Assembly: GCA_023512435.1 (NCBI GenBank) | Contig: JAILZP010000007.1 | Location: forward strand, 1-64,000 | Length of the DNA stretch: 64,000 nt | DNA from: Peptococcaceae bacterium | Lineage (GTDB): Bacteria; Bacillota; Desulfotomaculia; Desulfotomaculales; Desulfocucumaceae | Direction: 5' to 3' | Shown: piece after piece, positions 2,382 to 10,454 of the stretch | How positions within the stretch are numbered: position 1 is the first letter of the stretch | How the letters are laid out: the number at the start of each line of letters is the position of its first letter | Program-made: the position numbers and the translations under genes | Notes under the pieces: generated by a model | The model's input: only the letters and a program-made list of their open reading frames with translations | What the model was told of the DNA's origin: nothing | Databases searched by the model: none

Positions 2382-2423
2382 AAGAATAAAAAATCAGGAT
2401 TTAAATCCTGATTTTTTATTCTT
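2382..2423. terminator. Bidirectional terminator, perfect 42-bp palindrome
   Basis: An uninterrupted perfect palindrome centred on GGATTTAAATCC, with A6/T6 runs and AAGAAT/ATTCTT outer arms, lies between convergent hdrB and the ylbF-like gene. Each strand gives an AT-flanked hairpin with a U tract. It overlaps the stop codon (2416-2418) and last codons of the minus-strand gene. Confidence 0.9.
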
Positions 2424-2766
2424 CGCTGAGCTTGATGCCTTCACGGATCTTTTTGCTTATTTCCTTCATCAGGTCCTGGAAACCGGCGTTGGCCATATGG
2501 GAGGCCCTTACCACCGGGTGCTGCACGGCCGTCTTTTCTGATTCCGACAGTTTTCTTTTCTCTTCGGGGCTCAGATCGATGCCGGCCATCTGCTTCTTAA
2601 GCTGTTCGTGCTGCAGCTGCTGCAATTCCTCCACCAGCCCGCGGGCCTCGGGGTCGTGCATCAGGTCGTATTCAGCCTTTTTCATATTTTTGTATTCTTC
2701 TGTCCGGGCGACCATCCTGCCCAGTTCGATACATTTTTCCATGATCTCTTCCACCAAAGACACCAT
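2416..2766 (-). CDS. YlbF/YmcA-family protein (DUF964-like)
   Basis: 116 residues, almost wholly helical and charged, with the YlbF/YmcA signature pattern: an N-terminal helix with EIMEKCIELGRMVARTEEY, a central Gln/Glu-rich coiled-coil stretch (VEELQQLQHEQLKKQMAG) and a C-terminal amphipathic helix. The family includes B. subtilis YlbF and YmcA, which form the RNase Y specificity complex and influence competence, biofilm and sporulation decisions. The ATG start has a GGGAGGTG site just upstream. It lies downstream of the small yezD-like gene on the same strand, with a hairpin between. Family membership is judged from sequence pattern; the specific role here is unknown. Confidence 0.7.
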   Translation of the reverse strand: MVSLVEEIMEKCIELGRMVARTEEYKNMKKAEYDLMHDPEARGLVEELQQLQHEQLKKQMAGIDLSPEEKRKLSESEKTAVQHPVVRASHMANAGFQDLMKEISKKIREGIKLSEE

Positions 2767-2899: not shown

Positions 2900-3124
2900 T
2901 CAAAAAATGGTGCCTGTGTTCGCCTTGCGGCTTGCCGGCGGCTTGCGGGGCACACTTGGTCCCTGGTCGTCAAGCTTTACGGTTTTTATGGCCTCGTAAA
3001 TCAGCACGGGCTGGCCGTTTTCAACCCGGATCCTTACTTCGCCCCATCCCAGTTCCCTGATAAATTTTATCAGCTGTTTCTCCCGGTTGCTCAGAACCCT
3101 TGAAGGATTGGTTTCGTCAGCCAA
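2900..3124 (-). CDS. Small YezD/DUF2292-like protein
   Basis: About 74 residues from a TTG start with GGGAG about eight bases upstream; a second TTG 18 bases earlier is possible. The central part (LSNREKQLIKFIRELGWG, then VRIRVENGQPVLIYEAIKTV) has the pattern of YezD-like DUF2292 proteins: a short helix followed by a beta hairpin ending in a basic tail. In other sulfate- and sulfur-metabolising Firmicutes such small proteins lie near sulfur-assimilation genes, consistent with this neighbourhood, but no biochemical function is established. The C-terminal tail (PRKPPASRKANTG) is low complexity and basic. Confidence 0.6.
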   Translation of the reverse strand: MADETNPSRVLSNREKQLIKFIRELGWGEVRIRVENGQPVLIYEAIKTVKLDDQGPSVPRKPPASRKANTGTIF

Positions 3125-3236: not shown

Positions 3237-4013
3237 TTAACGGTAGGCCGTTTTTCTGCTCCGGCCCAGCATTTCTTCCACGGCTACGGCTGTGATTATG
3301 GTCAGGCAGGAGAATATGCAGACGAACAGCAGCGGATCCTTTTCAATGTCCAGGGGGCCGCCGGTCAGGCTGCCCTTCAGGTCCAGGGTCCTGCTTTCCC
3401 GGGCCACGATGACGTTGTCCCTGACCGCCATTATCTCTACCTGCACCTGGGGGCTGTATTCCTGCCGCCCGATGTGGAGGGACCCTTTGAACTTGCCGTC
3501 CTGGATTGTGATGCCCCGGTCGATGAATCTGTAGCTGCCTTTTTGTTCATTGTGGTTAATGGCCTTCTGAATTTGCTTGTCACTTTCCGGGCCGGCCAGC
3601 GTCACCCTCTTTTCTTCGGACCATGAATAGGCCGTCGCCATTTTTTTAAGGCTGCCGTATTCGCTTAGGATCTCCTGATTGATGCTGCCCGAACCGATCA
3701 CCTTGTACAGGCCGGGAAGATTGTCCACGATCACGTAGTCGGACGGGATCAGCCCGTTTTTGCCCAGGATGACCTTTTTCCCGGACCCCGTAATTTTTAC
3801 GATTACGTCGCAGCCCTCGTCCACACTGCCCGAAAAGGTCAGGTTGGCTTCTTGGGAAAGGAAAGAGAAACTGGCCTGGGGATCGTGAACAATCAGGGTA
3901 TTGGCGCGAGAAACGCTGGGACACAGGAAAACCGCCAGAGCCAGGGCCAGCGGCAGTAGCCGGGCCGTGACCGTCCGGTGCGGGAATACCCCTGCCTTAT
4001 TTGCCGTCAACAT
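3237..4013 (-). CDS. TIGR02186-type exported/membrane-anchored protein
   Basis: 258 residues with an N-terminal signal peptide (LLPLALALAVFLCPSVSRA), a beta-rich extracytoplasmic region and one C-terminal transmembrane helix (LLFVCIFSCLTIITAVAVEEM) before a short basic tail. This topology and motifs such as GLYKVIGSG match the TIGR02186 family of unknown function, often next to TauE/SafE permeases; a TauE/SafE gene lies about 3 kb upstream on the same strand. The ATG has GGGAGGG at good spacing. The untranslated leader carries a hairpin and a conserved motif repeated upstream of the histidine kinase (see 4045-4108), so expression may be controlled there. Function unknown; a role in sulfite or thiosulfate handling is inference. 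Confidence 0.6.
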   Translation of the reverse strand: MLTANKAGVFPHRTVTARLLPLALALAVFLCPSVSRANTLIVHDPQASFSFLSQEANLTFSGSVDEGCDVIVKITGSGKKVILGKNGLIPSDYVIVDNLPGLYKVIGSGSINQEILSEYGSLKKMATAYSWSEEKRVTLAGPESDKQIQKAINHNEQKGSYRFIDRGITIQDGKFKGSLHIGRQEYSPQVQVEIMAVRDNVIVARESRTLDLKGSLTGGPLDIEKDPLLFVCIFSCLTIITAVAVEEMLGRSRKTAYR

Positions 4014-4044: not shown

Positions 4045-4108
4045 GAAAAAACAGGCCGCTGAACCAGCCCAGGCTGATTATGCGGCCTATCGTTTTTCGA
4101 TTCGGCGT
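4045..4108 (-). promoter_or_regulatory. Candidate structured leader RNA, copy A
   Basis: On the minus strand a conserved block (rc of GGCCTATCGTT, one variable base, TTCGATTCGG) contains a mini-hairpin AUCG-loop-CGAU and runs directly into a stem AGGCCGC/GCGGCCT with an inner CAGCC/GGCTG hairpin, then GTTTTTTC. The ending looks like an intrinsic terminator placed 30 bases before the TIGR02186 start. The same block, 23 of 25 bases identical, precedes the histidine kinase at 6146-6170. I do not recognise a known riboswitch class. Confidence 0.5.
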
Positions 4109-4136
4109 GATCCGATTGTCAATTCCGGCGCAAATA

Positions 4137-4517
4137 TCAATTTACAAACACTGACTGGTCAATGGCCCTTTTTACCGCGCTCTTAAGGTCCACCAGCTGG
4201 AAGGGCTTGGTAATATAGCCCACGGCGCCCCGCTTTATGGCCTCCAGGGCGGTGGGCATGCTGCTGAAGGCAGTCATGAAAATAACCGGTATGTCTGGGT
4301 GGTTCTGTTTAATCTTCAGCAATGTCTCCAGGCCGTCTATATCAGGCATTTTATAATCGAGCAGGACCAGGGAGACCTTTGATTTGCCCAGCACCGAAAT
4401 GCCGTCGTAACCGTTGTCAACAGTAATCACTTCGTATCCTTCGCTCTGCAGGGCTTTTTCGATCGCCCAGCGCATCCCCTTTTCGTCATCGATGACTAAC
4501 ACAGTGGCTCCCGCCAT
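4137..4517 (-). CDS. Single-domain (CheY/Spo0F-like) response regulator
   Basis: 126 residues forming one receiver domain and nothing else. The acidic pocket (VIDDEKG), phosphoacceptor Asp in VLLDYKMPDIDG (about residue 54), Thr in FMTAFSS and Lys in YITKPF are all present, so it should be phosphorylatable. It lacks a DNA-binding domain and so must pass its signal to another protein, as Spo0F and CheY do. It lies 25 bases downstream of the histidine kinase gene and very probably is its partner. Its output target is not visible in the window. Confidence 0.85.
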   Translation of the reverse strand: MAGATVLVIDDEKGMRWAIEKALQSEGYEVITVDNGYDGISVLGKSKVSLVLLDYKMPDIDGLETLLKIKQNHPDIPVIFMTAFSSMPTALEAIKRGAVGYITKPFQLVDLKSAVKRAIDQSVFVN

Positions 4518-4542
4518 TTTGAGGTTTCCTCCTTCGGCTGTC

Positions 4543-6033
4543 TCAAACCGGAAAACAGATTATAAAGGTGGTTCCTTTTCCGGGTTCACTCTCTATTTCA
4601 ATGGATCCCCGGTGTATCTTTATGATTTCCTGGCTGATGGCCAGGCCCAGGCCGGTTCCCTCTTTTTTCCCGGTGTAGAACGGCTCAAAGATTTGCGGGA
4701 TGTTTTCCCTCTCGATACCCACGCCGTAATCCCTTATGGTCACGCATATTTTGTCTTCCCGGGGCTGGAACGTTTTTATGTCCAGCTGCCCCCCTCCCGG
4801 CATGGCCTGAATGGCGTTCATGATGATATTGATAAAGACCTGGTGCAGTTTTTCCCTGTTCCCCTGAAATGCTTTTATACCGTCTTCCTGTTCGAAATTA
4901 ACCCGGATGCCGCTTTTTTGGGCCAGGGGAGCGATGTATTGGACCACCTCTTTAACTATCCCGTTCAGGTCCAGGCTTTCCACCCGGTAGCCCTCGCTTC
5001 GCCCGAAGTCCAGCAGTTCCGCCGTCAGCTTGTTGTGGCGATCAATCTGGCTGGTGATCATATTAAAATGATCATCCATGTTGGGGATCTTGTTTTTTCT
5101 GACCTCTTCGGCAATCAACTCGGCGGTGGCCTGAATTATGCACATGGGATTGCGGATTTCATGGGCGATGTCCGCCGCCAGCCGCCCCAGGGTGGCCAGC
5201 CCTTCGGATCTTTTCAGCTGTTCTTCCAGCTGCTTCTTCTCGGCCAGCCCCCGGGCCATCTTATTTATAGCCGCCGCTATCTGCCCGAGGTCCCCCGGCA
5301 TGGGAGGGATGCTCTTGCTGAAATCCTTTTCGATTTCCCGCAGGCCCCGCAAAATCTGATCGACCCTGGCGTTCACCTGGTTGGTGGCCACCTGGGTGCC
5401 CACAAGGCCGGCGATAATAAGGACCAGGATGATGTACATGATTACGATGCGGGCTTGCCGGCTCCTGGCGAAGGCCGGGTGGATGCGCTCCTCGGCCCAG
5501 ACCACGGCGGCGATTTTGGAATCCACAAAGATCGGGGCCAGGCACTCCAGGAAGTTGTCGTCCCAGGTCTTGCCCACCCTGGTTATGGGTACGCCGCCGG
5601 AGACCACGGCGCTGATTCCCGCCGCCGCTTCGTTGCGAATGCGCGCCTCCCGGGCGGCCTGTTCTTCCGGGGGCCTTTTTTTGTATTCGTGGATAAAGCC
5701 GTGGATGTATATTTTGTCCGTCTCCACCACGTACATGCACAGCCGGACGCCATTGTAGCTTTGGGACATGGGGACGGCCACTTCGTCGAAGGCCTGCTTC
5801 ATGACCTGGTTTAAATCGCGGTCCCGGCCGCCTGCCTCCATTTTATTACATATCTGGCTGGCCAGGTTGTCCGTGATGCCGGACAGCTTTTTTTCCAGGT
5901 TGGTCAGTAGAACATCCTCGGACTTCTCCAGGAAGAATATGTCATAGAATAAAACGATCACGGGTATCAGCAGGAGCAAGGAAACCACTATTATCATCTG
6001 CACCCTGAAGCCCTGCCTGAATAACCCCGGCAT
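4543..6033 (-). CDS. Membrane sensor histidine kinase
   Basis: 496 residues: transmembrane helix 1 (VVSLLLLIPVIVLFYDIFFL, about 16-35), an extracytoplasmic sensor region of about 150 residues, helix 2 (IVIMYIILVLIIAGLVGT, near 200), a HAMP-like linker, HisKA with the phosphoaccepting His in DIAHEIRNPM (about residue 290), and an HATPase domain with NIIMNAIQAM, DYGVGIE and GTGLGLAIS. The sensor region looks like a Cache-type ligand pocket (GVPITRVGKTWDDNF), but the ligand cannot be read from sequence. A single-domain regulator follows, forming a two-component unit. A good sigma-A promoter and the conserved leader motif lie upstream. By neighbourhood the signal may be a sulfur oxyanion; that is inference. 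Confidence 0.88.
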   Translation of the reverse strand: MPGLFRQGFRVQMIIVVSLLLLIPVIVLFYDIFFLEKSEDVLLTNLEKKLSGITDNLASQICNKMEAGGRDRDLNQVMKQAFDEVAVPMSQSYNGVRLCMYVVETDKIYIHGFIHEYKKRPPEEQAAREARIRNEAAAGISAVVSGGVPITRVGKTWDDNFLECLAPIFVDSKIAAVVWAEERIHPAFARSRQARIVIMYIILVLIIAGLVGTQVATNQVNARVDQILRGLREIEKDFSKSIPPMPGDLGQIAAAINKMARGLAEKKQLEEQLKRSEGLATLGRLAADIAHEIRNPMCIIQATAELIAEEVRKNKIPNMDDHFNMITSQIDRHNKLTAELLDFGRSEGYRVESLDLNGIVKEVVQYIAPLAQKSGIRVNFEQEDGIKAFQGNREKLHQVFINIIMNAIQAMPGGGQLDIKTFQPREDKICVTIRDYGVGIERENIPQIFEPFYTGKKEGTGLGLAISQEIIKIHRGSIEIESEPGKGTTFIICFPV

Positions 6034-6078
6034 CTGACACCTCCACGCCCCGCACTTAATTTAAACCCTACTGCTTAT

Positions 6079-6170
6079 GAACAAAGGCCGGGCATCCCTT
6101 CACCATCCCGCGTTATCCCGCTTTGCGGGAGTTGAAGAGGCATCCGGCCTATCGTTGTTCGATTCGGTGT
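6079..6170 (-). promoter_or_regulatory. Candidate structured leader RNA, copy B
   Basis: On the minus strand the conserved block (6146-6170) opens the transcript about 10 bases after the predicted start site. A long hairpin closed by AGGCCGG/CCGGCCT follows, with an inner CCCGC-AAA-GCGGG stem. The kinase ATG lies 46 bases further on. Unlike copy A, the tail CCTTTGTTC is only weakly U-rich. Confidence 0.5.
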
Positions 6171-6186
6171 ATATTTGGTTACTGAA

Positions 6187-6215
6187 ATCATAACAAAGCC
6201 GGTGAGCTTTGTCAA
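6187..6215 (-). promoter_or_regulatory. Sigma-A promoter of the histidine kinase operon
   Basis: Minus-strand TTGACA (6210-6215) and TATGAT (6187-6192) are separated by exactly 17 bases. Transcription would start near 6180, placing the conserved leader motif at the very 5' end of the mRNA. Confidence 0.8.
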
Positions 6216-6471: not shown

Positions 6472-7056
6472 TTATCTCGCGCTGGCAGCCGTTTTTCCGG
6501 CTGCGGGAGCTTTTTCCAGGGTGTATACGGGTGCGCCGGCGGTGCTGACCAGGGCGCTTACCTCAAGGAAGAGTTCCCTGCTCCGGACCACTCCCACCGC
6601 CAGTCCGTCCCTGACCACGGGCACGTGGCTGGTGGAGTGTTTGGTCATTCCGTATACGGCCTTGATCAGGGGGTCCTCGGCTTCAACGTGAAACTCCGCC
6701 GGCTTCATTATGTCCCTGGCTTTTTTGTCCGTGGCCTCAATGCAACGGTCGGTGAACAGCCCTTCCCAGAACACCGGTATGGCCCATTCCCTGTTGACTG
6801 TCCACCCGCGGTAGGTCCCGCCCTTTAAGAACTGGGGCTCTATGGCGCCCAGCACTTCTTCCAGGCCGATGAATCCGGCCACCAGGCCGTTGTCGTAGAC
6901 CAGGACCGTGTCGTCCACCTTCACGGGATTTCCGCCACCGGGAACCAGGGCCTTTTTCAGGGTGGTGACGATTTCCCTGAATCCGGCCTCGGCGGGCACG
7001 GCCAGGTAGTCTTGCAGGGATAGCATGATATCACCGATTTTTTTCTCTTTGAACAT
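6472..7056 (-). CDS. CBS-domain pair protein beside the TauE permease
   Basis: 194 residues with tandem CBS domains: the first around residues 8-75 (IGDIMLSLQDYLAVPAEAGF, then VDDTVLVYDNGLVAGFIGLE), the second around 110-165 (ARDIMKPAEFHVEAEDPLIK, TSHVPVVRDGLAVGVVRSRE). An unusual insertion rich in Trp and Phe (YRGWTVNREWAIPVFWEGLF) lies between them. CBS pairs bind adenine nucleotides and regulate partner proteins. The gene starts 43 bases downstream of the TauE/SafE permease on the same strand with a good AGGAGG site, so it probably gates or senses energy state for that transporter. The partner assignment is inference from the operon. Confidence 0.75.
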   Translation of the reverse strand: MFKEKKIGDIMLSLQDYLAVPAEAGFREIVTTLKKALVPGGGNPVKVDDTVLVYDNGLVAGFIGLEEVLGAIEPQFLKGGTYRGWTVNREWAIPVFWEGLFTDRCIEATDKKARDIMKPAEFHVEAEDPLIKAVYGMTKHSTSHVPVVRDGLAVGVVRSRELFLEVSALVSTAGAPVYTLEKAPAAGKTAASAR

Positions 7057-7099: not shown

Positions 7100-8137
7100 C
7101 TATCTTGCGTCCTGAACCGTCGTCCGGCTGTGCAGTTCCAGTTGAGCCTGCTTGGCCTCGGCCACGCCCTTGATCAGGAGGATGATAACGATGGCGCTTA
7201 AGGTGCAGGCCGATCCCAGCATCAGCACGCCGGCGGCGGTGGACCACTGGAGCTGCTTGAAGATAACCGCCACGCCGGCCAGCAGCACGGTCACGGCAAA
7301 GTACAGGCGGATGCGCATTCCCTTGACATAGGCGGTGGCCACCGACCCTATCTGGGCGCCCACACCGGCTCCCAGCAGCATCACCATGGCCCCGATCACC
7401 TCAACCCGGCCGGCTATGGCGTAGGTGTATGAACCCCAGAGGTTGGAAATAAGTATGCCCAGCAGGTCGGTCCCCACCGCCACGGTGGTGGGCAGGCCCA
7501 TCAGGTAGATGAACATCGGCACCCTTACGAATCCACCGCCCACTCCCAGGAAGCCGGAAACGAAGCCGGTGAATATTCCCAGGGCGATGATCAGCCACAG
7601 AGAGTACGCCTTGATGCCCGATGTGGGGAGGGAGATCATCGGGGGGATCCTGAGGTTTTGCAGCTTCCTGGCTATTGGCGAAATATCGGCCTCGGCCTTA
7701 AGGCTGCCGTCCTCGTTGATCTCCTGCCGCTTTTGGAACTTGACGTACTCGGCCAGCATGAAGGCGCCCACGCCGAACAGAAGGGCGATGTAGACTATCC
7801 GTACGATTGGCCCCACCTGGCCGATCTTCTCAAGGTACATGATGGTCTGTTTTCCGAGCTGGACTCCGTACATGCCGGTCAGGCCGACGATAATCCCCAG
7901 TTTCCAGTCCACGTGCTTCAGCAGGGCGTGTTTGAAGGTGGCCACGATTGATTTGCCGAAGATGTGGGCGATGTCGGTGCCGATGGCAAAAGCCATGGGA
8001 AAACCGAATATGTTCAGGGCCGGGGTGACCATAAAGGCGCCTCCCACGCCGAAGAAGCCCCCCAGCACACCCACGCAAAAACCGATCAAGAGCAGCGCGT
8101 ACGGATTGACAACGGTGTCAGCAATTGGAAGATACAT
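7100..8137 (-). CDS. TauE/SafE-family anion permease (probable sulfite/sulfonate exporter)
   Basis: 345 residues with two repeats of the glycine-rich TauE signature: GFCVGVLGGFFGVGGAFMVT near residue 16 and GFVSGFLGVGGGFVRVPMF near residue 202, plus seven to eight hydrophobic helices. A charged cytoplasmic loop (KFQKRQEINEDGSLKAEADI) splits the halves. Members export sulfite, sulfoacetate or other small anions across the cytoplasmic membrane. The ATG follows AAGGAGGTAAGG. A 53-residue membrane protein lies 92 bases upstream and a CBS protein downstream, giving a three-gene unit. Proximity to qmo-hdr genes suggests sulfur oxyanions as substrate, but this is not shown by sequence. Confidence 0.85.
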   Translation of the reverse strand: MYLPIADTVVNPYALLLIGFCVGVLGGFFGVGGAFMVTPALNIFGFPMAFAIGTDIAHIFGKSIVATFKHALLKHVDWKLGIIVGLTGMYGVQLGKQTIMYLEKIGQVGPIVRIVYIALLFGVGAFMLAEYVKFQKRQEINEDGSLKAEADISPIARKLQNLRIPPMISLPTSGIKAYSLWLIIALGIFTGFVSGFLGVGGGFVRVPMFIYLMGLPTTVAVGTDLLGILISNLWGSYTYAIAGRVEVIGAMVMLLGAGVGAQIGSVATAYVKGMRIRLYFAVTVLLAGVAVIFKQLQWSTAAGVLMLGSACTLSAIVIILLIKGVAEAKQAQLELHSRTTVQDAR

Positions 8138-8768: not shown

Positions 8769-10454
8769 CTATAAGACCGCCCCCTTTATCAACGTTCTTG
8801 GGACTTCGGACACCCCGAGGGCCGCGAGAATCTCTTTCTGGATTCCGTGGGCCGGGGTTACAAATCTTATTTCTTTGTGGTTCATTTGGTTGACGGTGAG
8901 TTTGATATCCTCCAGGATTTCCAGGGCGTTTCTGGCGCTTATTTCAATGTTGTGCTGCTGCAGGATGTTTTCCAGGGCCTTTTCCACAAGATAGGCCATT
9001 ACCGAGATAAATACGTATCCTCTGATCCTGGATTCGGTATAATCACCGGGGCCGGTGTCGATGTTTTTAATCAGCCGGAATTCATCCCTGGCCTCGGCGT
9101 AGTGGGTGTATGCGTTTATGATCTCCACCGGGGAGAGATCCCTGGCGTTGGTCTTGATTACAAACTTGCCGCTGCGGGCGATTTCCCGGTCGATGACGTC
9201 CTGCCTCCGGCGGTAGGCAAATTTGTTGTTTTTGTCATCGTACGTGTATTCAAAATAGCGCCGGCAAAAGGTGTCTTTGAGAAGGTTCTTCGCCTTGTAG
9301 AAATTTGCCTTGGCGTTGAAGCTGCACTTGCTTTCCACCCATTTTTGTATTTCCGCCAGCTCTTTTTCGATGCTGTTCAGCCTGTTTTCCAGTATGAACA
9401 GGTTTTCGGCCGCCTTCTCCGGGTTGCAGCAAAGCAGGTAGCGGTTTCCGGCGGCCTCGATTTCACGGTAGAGAAGGTCGTCGCCGATAGTTTCAAATTT
9501 TTCGGAGGGCGCTTCCAGGTGGCTTTCCAGGGGGCCCAGTTCCCGGTTGTAACTGAGCTCAAGGCCCATTATGTACTCGTATCCGTAAGCCACCAAAAGC
9601 CTGACGTTCTCCTCGGTGATAATTTTCTGGTCGCCTACAAATATGCATTTTTCAACAGCGTACTGGTCCATGATCTGGGAAACCCGCCTGGGCACCGTAT
9701 CGCCGTCCGCGAAGCTGCCCATGAACACTCTGTGGCCCAGGGGGATGCCTTTTTCGTTGACCAGGATGCTCAGATCAACCTGCTTTCTGTCCGGCGGCCG
9801 GCCGATAAAGGACCTTGTGCCGCGCTGGCCGCTGGTTTCGCCGGCGGCCCTTTCAAAAAACCCCCTGGTCAGGTGGCAGAACACCGTTCCCGACTCCGCC
9901 GGGAAGAGGTTCTGGACAGCCTGGAAAATTTCCTTTTCCAGGGGCTCCTTGATGGCCGTGAGGGCGTCCAGGGCCCTGGAAAAATGTTCGGGGGTAAGGT
10001 TCCTTCCTTCCAGCTGGGGCAGGTAAAGACTGCGGTACCAGTCGCTAAGGGTCTTGCTGTTTTTGGGCTTGAGAACCTGGTTCATCACCATGATCTCCGC
10101 CAGGTGGGGGAGGATCGCCGGCTTTTCCGGACCCGTCAGATCCCGGATGATTTTGTTGATGCCCAGCCTGGACCAGACTTTGTGCAGGGCCAGGACATCG
10201 CCAAAGTGAAGCACCTTTTTGGTTTCGAAGGAGGTGTCTTCAGTTTCCAGCCCGCATATTCTGGCCAGGCCGGTGATCAGCCCCTGGACTTTTTCGGGCG
10301 TCAGATCCTCTATGTTGCCCAGGTTGGCAATAACGCGCTGCTTAACCTTGCTGCCTTCCCGGTAGTTTTCGATCAGCTTTACATAGGTGTATTCTTTTCC
10401 GTTGCTTTTGCTTACTACCTTGCGGAAAAACATCACTACACCAACTTTCGGCAT
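8769..10454 (-). CDS. IS1634/IS4-superfamily DDE transposase
   Basis: 561 residues, the usual full length for IS1634 transposases, with no frameshift. The N-terminus (VVSKSNGKEYTYVKLIENYR) is typical of the family. Candidate DDE residues are the Asp in RKQVDLSILVNEKGIPLGH, the Asp in CIFVGDQKII and the Glu in YAEARDEFRLIKNI. The second Met (10433), giving MFFRKVVSK, is an equally plausible start; neither has a strong ribosome site. The element looks intact and possibly active. Confidence 0.85.
   Translation of the reverse strand: MPKVGVVMFFRKVVSKSNGKEYTYVKLIENYREGSKVKQRVIANLGNIEDLTPEKVQGLITGLARICGLETEDTSFETKKVLHFGDVLALHKVWSRLGINKIIRDLTGPEKPAILPHLAEIMVMNQVLKPKNSKTLSDWYRSLYLPQLEGRNLTPEHFSRALDALTAIKEPLEKEIFQAVQNLFPAESGTVFCHLTRGFFERAAGETSGQRGTRSFIGRPPDRKQVDLSILVNEKGIPLGHRVFMGSFADGDTVPRRVSQIMDQYAVEKCIFVGDQKIITEENVRLLVAYGYEYIMGLELSYNRELGPLESHLEAPSEKFETIGDDLLYREIEAAGNRYLLCCNPEKAAENLFILENRLNSIEKELAEIQKWVESKCSFNAKANFYKAKNLLKDTFCRRYFEYTYDDKNNKFAYRRRQDVIDREIARSGKFVIKTNARDLSPVEIINAYTHYAEARDEFRLIKNIDTGPGDYTESRIRGYVFISVMAYLVEKALENILQQHNIEISARNALEILEDIKLTVNQMNHKEIRFVTPAHGIQKEILAALGVSEVPRTLIKGAVL

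Follow-up and report, generated by a model that had tools for sequence, protein, structure and literature searches.

The region described here belongs to a 64,000-nucleotide stretch of a Peptococcaceae bacterium genome, called the window below. On the minus strand the genes run in the order TauE/SafE transporter, CBS-domain protein, sensor histidine kinase, receiver-only response regulator, TIGR02186 membrane protein, DUF2292-like small protein and YlbF-like protein (Table 1). Two copies of a short conserved element lie in this island: copy B, with a promoter of its own, precedes the kinase, and copy A is positioned between the receiver gene and TIGR02186, where no convincing promoter of its own was recognised. 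The original prediction had singled out both as 25-base blocks of a leader RNA, and these are real, since the pattern CCGAATCGN5CGATAGGCCG, with three mismatches allowed, matches the window only at 4083-4105 and 6145-6167, both times exactly and on the minus strand, against a chance expectation of 0.04 and with two matches in no shuffle. The elements described around the blocks, namely an AUCG/CGAU mini-hairpin, a closing stem AGGCCG/CGGCCT, a U run behind copy A and a promoter before copy B, are likewise present in the sequence, the promoter ending 17 nt ahead of the hairpin. The same genome carries a third copy, copy C (C73:48262-48284), which is preceded by a TTGACA-N17-TACTAT promoter and followed by the genes of a small membrane protein and of a TauE/SafE protein.

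Table 1. Positions in the window of the two element copies and of the neighbouring genes.
Feature	Position	Strand	Basis
Predicted antiterminator hairpin of copy A, CGCC-GA-AUCG-AAAAA-CGAU-A-GGCC	4084-4107	-	sequence pattern, family covariation, ViennaRNA
Intrinsic terminator of copy A, GGCCGC...GCGGCC (4054-4087) and U run (4046-4053)	4046-4087	-	sequence, ViennaRNA MFE
Predicted antiterminator hairpin of copy B, CACC-GA-AUCG-AACAA-CGAU-A-GGCC	6146-6169	-	sequence pattern, ViennaRNA
Terminator of copy B, GGCCGG...CCGGCC (6086-6149) and UUUGUU	6080-6149	-	sequence, ViennaRNA
Promoter of copy B, TTGACA (6210-6215)-N17-TATGAT (6187-6192)	6187-6215	-	sequence, family promoter pattern
TIGR02186/Alph_Pro_TM membrane protein, target of copy A	3237-4013	-	PF09608, E 4.5e-9
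DUF2292-like small protein, next gene after TIGR02186, proposed antiterminator	2900-3124	-	profile E 3.1e-31; co-occurrence
Sensor histidine kinase, target of copy B	4543-6033	-	HATPase_c 4.4e-28, HisKA 6.2e-12
Receiver-only response regulator after the kinase, no output domain	4137-4517	-	PF00072 5.8e-32
TauE/SafE (TSUP) transporter, same island, upstream of copy B	7100-8137	-	PF01925 1.8e-44
CBS-domain protein, same island	6472-7056	-	PF00571 2.7e-9

The hairpin, the terminator and their covariation

The conserved part of the element is a 24-nt hairpin, GGCY-RA-AUCG-AACAA-CGAU-A-GGCC, built from an outer stem GGCY/GGCC, a 2x1 internal loop RA/A, an inner stem AUCG/CGAU and a pentaloop AACAA. 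Its 3' GGCC doubles as the base of the 5' arm in an intrinsic terminator (the common bases are 4084-4087 in copy A and 6146-6149 in copy B), so that the hairpin and the terminator are mutually exclusive. The mini-hairpin joined directly to a larger stem, as the element had first been drawn, is a static picture of the terminated state only. It does not describe the whole, since two mutually exclusive hairpins define the element, and it misses the pairing of GGCC with an upstream GGCY (GCC in copy A, CC in copy B) that makes up the predicted antiterminator. The outermost C-C of the copy A hairpin is unpaired, and copy B, with only two outer pairs, is a weak member of the set.

Among 61 distinct hairpins with eight pairs each, pairing is kept in 94.9% of cells and six of the eight pairs show two-sided changes, values that none of 500 shuffles matched on any measure; when the partner is shifted by one column, pairing falls to 30-36%. 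Variants of the inner stem include AUGG/CCAU, AUCA/UGAU and AUUG/CAAU. The unpaired bases A7, A16 and A21 and the AACAA loop are strongly conserved, the pentaloop reading AACAA at 68 of 88 sites. These 88 sites are what remained of 93 after a filter for a terminator with a good stem and a U run. The terminators vary freely in sequence and in length (24-68 nt), their stems differing beyond GGCC while the hairpin is kept.

With the 5' GGCY of the hairpin called S1, its 3' GGCC S2 and the 3' arm of the terminator S3, S2 changes jointly with both S1 and S3 across the 88 sites, giving three-way sets such as AGCC/GGCU/AGCC (8 sites), GGCU/AGCC/GGCU, GGUC/GACC/GGUC and GGUU/GACC/GGUU; in G098 the stem is AACU/AGUU and the terminator end carries AACUUUUU. 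Watson-Crick pairs between S1 and S2 number 294 against 266 expected (0 of 5000 shuffles), and at sites with an S2 other than GGCC 115 of 120 S1-S2 pairs are standard (1 of 5000 shuffles as high), both figures being uncorrected for kinship among the genomes. Pairing statistics for S3 are biased, since the 3' arms were located by complementarity to S2, a bias from which the S1-S2 test is free. Covariation, which had been read from how the two closing stems of the window differ, is weak on that basis and becomes real with about 90 homologues, where at the level of sequence it supports both exclusive structures.

Sequence analysis thus finds an intrinsic terminator before a gene together with a conserved alternative hairpin that has a strand in common with it, the arrangement of a transcription attenuator. 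A promoter-like site stands upstream of 57 of the 88 elements, mostly 18-35 nt before them, compared with 19% in shuffles. The terminator is predicted to be more stable than the antiterminator at all 88 sites (medians -23 versus -7.5 kcal/mol). When folded with ViennaRNA, the first 40 nt of copy A form the antiterminator (-7.2 kcal/mol), as do those of copy C, and the minimum-energy structure of the whole copy A element is the terminator, at -28.3 kcal/mol, compared with -17.7 kcal/mol when the antiterminator is imposed; the first 40 nt of copy B give the mini-hairpin alone and a second small hairpin. Given these energies, the predicted default is termination, with a brief opportunity for a factor to hold the antiterminator.

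Some sites depart from the single arrangement. Tandem copies about 70-170 nt apart precede one gene at L091:7444/7519, L097:7053/7219, L082:7076/7173 and L098:4504/4575, forming two attenuators in series. At L099:6185 (G048) and at L100:6488 and 6740 (G049) the hairpin is kept and a separate terminator, AAGGCGGG/CCCCGCCTT, comes after it; the 5' arm of that terminator could pair instead with GCCGCUUU directly behind the hairpin. These three copies depart from the simple scheme, and the logic there could be inverted, the bound hairpin meaning off; in their minimum-energy structures hairpin and terminator fold together.

Distribution and target genes

When 84,980 species genomes were scanned for the exact pattern, 28 stretches came back, the majority belonging to the Desulfotomaculum group (Pelotomaculum, Desulforudis, Desulfofundulus, Desulfoscipio, Desulforamulus, Desulfovirgula and Ammonifex); hits to Xenorhabdus, Erythrobacter and a Verrucomicrobia MAG (L044, L041, L032) show no terminator in the flanks inspected and were dismissed as chance. 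Within the class to which the window belongs, allowing up to two mismatches gave about 95 sites in 32 of 113 genomes, against about 3 for a reversed-pattern control, and a covariance model (R1) added G098. The further copies in related genomes on which the original prediction depended therefore exist: about 90 of them in 33 of the 113 genomes and in 22 genera, many of them grouped into a single island per genome. Lower-scoring R1 matches (under 28 bits) in G174, G346, G280 and G069 were taken as chance after their flanks had been read by eye. In a sample of 399 genomes from the phylum, strong matches occurred only in the order and in one further MAG (G186, outside the class and 84% complete), where the motif lies at a contig end and the DUF2292-like protein was not detected. 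The motif was not matched in the plasmid collection.

As had been suspected, the element matches no RNA family of the library searched: the copies have no match in Rfam release 15 at the gathering threshold or at E<=10, and 20 loci around other copies gave none except one ordinary tRNA. In the literature searched, AACGATAGGCC was not found, nor were Desulfotomaculum, antiterminator and sulfite found together. The attenuator family is thus real and widespread, absent from Rfam and from the literature searched, and of a mechanistic class that is already known.

Genes placed first or early after the sites encode TauE/SafE-type transporters with a paired small membrane protein, DUF2292-like proteins, the kinase with its receiver-only regulator, Usp and CBS proteins, sodium:sulfate symporters, TIGR02186 proteins, FNT channels and a beta/gamma-crystallin-like protein (named by eye; it has no Pfam match), and several sites lie within operons. 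The regulon mainly serves the transport of sulfate, sulfite and related anions, with a two-component system besides, and these targets, together with the covariation, uphold the earlier view of a conserved structured leader motif in one largely sulfur-related regulon. The host order, Desulfotomaculales, consists mostly of sulfate-reducing bacteria, and across 22 genera a single RNA switch stands over a sensor kinase, a small protein and transporters of the TSUP and sodium:sulfate types. A genomic survey of the transporters of sulfate reducers refers to physiological control under sulfate limitation; a keyword search of its text gave no regulator by name (PMC5840216).

The motif and the DUF2292-like protein do not simply track sulfate reduction, since dsrA is found in 77 of the 113 genomes of the class, 51 genomes with dsrA have no motif and six motif genomes in family f16 have no dsrA. 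G085, G086 and G096 (L078, L079, L080), f16 genomes that lack dsrA, each have a single recognised copy, located before an FNT-family channel that adjoins NADH/formate-dehydrogenase-like genes. The switch is therefore not limited to sulfur genes, and this target suggests that the signal may be wider than sulfur.

Proposed mechanism and alternative readings

During synthesis of the leader the 24-nt hairpin would fold first. If no factor were bound, the longer terminator hairpin would win and the downstream genes would stay off, whereas a trans-acting factor holding the 24-nt hairpin would deprive the terminator of the base pairs beside the U run, where an intrinsic terminator is most sensitive, and RNA polymerase would read through. 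We infer this direction, on when bound. The most likely factor would be the DUF2292-like protein, small and mostly basic, whose gene lies downstream of copy A in the window, so that it would also regulate its own synthesis; the signal is perhaps sulfate or sulfite status, conveyed through the kinase. That the element is an attenuator controlled by antitermination, with the DUF2292-like protein as the most likely factor and a regulon mainly of sulfate and sulfite transport, is the reading we prefer, at a probability of about 0.7.

The DUF2292-like protein and the kinase were picked as candidates for their membership in the island. With a profile built from the island DUF2292-like proteins, a strong member (85-109 bits) is detected in 33 of 33 motif genomes of the class and in one of its 80 other genomes (G044), a contrast whose Fisher test ignores phylogeny; G105 has a weak member, and no score above 53 bits occurs outside the order in the phylum sample of 399 genomes. 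The island kinase, as a control, reaches at least 270 bits in 22 of the 33 motif genomes. Since the gene lies within the motif island in most genomes, co-inheritance accounts for part of the co-occurrence. In seven genomes (G048, G085, G086, G088, G096, G097, G098) the gene is unlinked from the site, its product lies outside the set from which the profile was built, and no hairpin was found in the roughly 320 nt upstream of it. The proteins are about 60-80 amino acids long and mostly basic (median pI 9.7, range 5.0-10.6). We propose the DUF2292-like protein as the trans-acting antiterminator, RNA binding being suggested by the co-occurrence, the unlinked copies and the basic charge. Its AlphaFold model is poor (pLDDT 60.6) and unfit for a fold search, and a PDB sequence search gave nothing convincing and no solved relative.

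The same attenuator might be served by another RNA-binding protein that binds the 24-nt hairpin, with the DUF2292-like protein only a co-regulated member of the regulon, an alternative to be taken seriously that nevertheless falls well short of even odds. It would account for the many DUF2292-like genes directly behind the motif, where they stand like other regulon members (14 of 86 first genes), and for the canonical DUF2292 proteins of organisms without the motif, for example G026, G027, G031 and B. subtilis; it accounts less easily for a protein that is unlinked and without a recognisable upstream motif in seven genomes, yet present wherever the class has the motif. Among known binders, the RAT recognised by the BglG/SacY/LicT proteins is a hairpin of about 24-30 nt with an asymmetric internal loop and a 3' side common to the terminator. 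The present hairpin resembles it in size, in the asymmetric loop and in its 3' side, and differs in sequence from what we take to be the RAT consensus. A BglG-type regulator was rejected, as CAT_RBD proteins occur in two of the 113 genomes, neither of which has the motif.

ANTAR attenuators (EutV, NasR, AmiR) also use an alternative hairpin that overlaps the 5' arm of the terminator, with several attenuators per gene cluster and a two-component system in the regulon, and ANTAR proteins are encoded in 99 of the 113 genomes, a near universality that makes their presence uninformative. ANTAR sites consist of two small hexaloop hairpins with A at position 1 and G at position 4 (PMC3369931), whereas here a single conserved hairpin with the pentaloop AACAA and no second hexaloop hairpin is found; the RNA signature is thus wrong for an ANTAR regulator, and the response regulator of the island has neither an ANTAR nor any other output domain.

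A small riboswitch, in which the hairpin itself binds a metabolite or anion such as sulfite, sulfate, APS or thiosulfate, was implicit in the in-line probing first suggested. Like small transcriptional riboswitches, the element is a leader that precedes transport genes and has two mutually exclusive structures; the strong conservation of the unpaired adenines and of the loop speaks for this reading, as does a regulon of anion transporters. Unlike them it matches no Rfam family, and its conserved part, one short hairpin before a freely varying terminator, is too small for a recognisable aptamer. The f16 genomes examined have their only recognised site before the FNT channel, and the co-occurring protein would be left unexplained. 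With a 24-nt core and the protein in every motif genome of the class, a ligand riboswitch is less likely than a protein-bound antiterminator, and we regard it as unlikely.

Very improbable is a DNA operator, in which a transcription factor would bind the near-palindrome AATCG-N5-CGATA and the terminators would be incidental. The core is indeed a dyad, and in many cases a promoter-like -10 box is found 18-35 nt upstream of it, but the conserved AACAA loop lacks symmetry, covariation links the outer stem to the middle segment and to the terminator, a terminator using the same GGCC follows almost every site, and several sites are internal to operons. A dispersed repeat, or ordinary terminators alike by chance, would suit the multiple copies and their clustering in one island per genome and is the least probable reading of all, as the hairpin is conserved while the terminator stems beyond GGCC differ, compensatory changes are frequent and functionally related genes follow in 22 genera.

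With this element, the mechanism and the part played by DUF2292-like proteins become open to direct tests, and the island protein is a specific candidate for a new antiterminator type. We know of no function for DUF2292/YezD or for the island subfamily. Twenty of 32 island proteins match DUF2292 (PF10055; YezD of B. subtilis) weakly, the best at 7.8e-5, and the protein of the window scores 16.5 bits against a cut-off of 22 bits, some relatives lying just above it. B. subtilis yezD is listed as being of unknown function (PMC6385201). The island proteins differ from canonical DUF2292 as a separate subfamily, whose profile is not matched in genomes with canonical members only (G026, G027, G028), and no hairpin copy was noticed when the regions around five canonical DUF2292 genes were inspected by eye. 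That the island protein founds a new class of RNA-binding antiterminators, acting on a single 24-nt pentaloop hairpin in a sulfate/sulfite transport regulon of Desulfotomaculales, and that the wider DUF2292/YezD family may bind RNA too, is a tentative proposal to which we give slightly less than even odds.

G044 (L140, G044:C225) has three tandem DUF2292-like genes between a receiver-like gene and a sodium:sulfate symporter-like gene; no hairpin copy is recognisable there, and it has possibly diverged or been lost. The gene run behind copy A ends with a YlbF/YmcA-like protein (window 2416-2766; NCBIfam 1.3e-5, below the cut-off); the YlbF/YmcA proteins of B. subtilis act on mRNA processing. 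A transposase-like HTH protein, possibly a domesticated regulator, is encoded directly behind the switch in two genomes (L101, the ORF behind 6856, and L082, the ORF behind 3006), the former matching PF01527 at 1e-6 in a scan of L101 only. An IS-like protein of 510-560 amino acids adjoins the island in the window (8769-10454) and at L086, L089 and L111, and at L102 a 72-amino-acid N-terminal version of it lies directly behind a copy.
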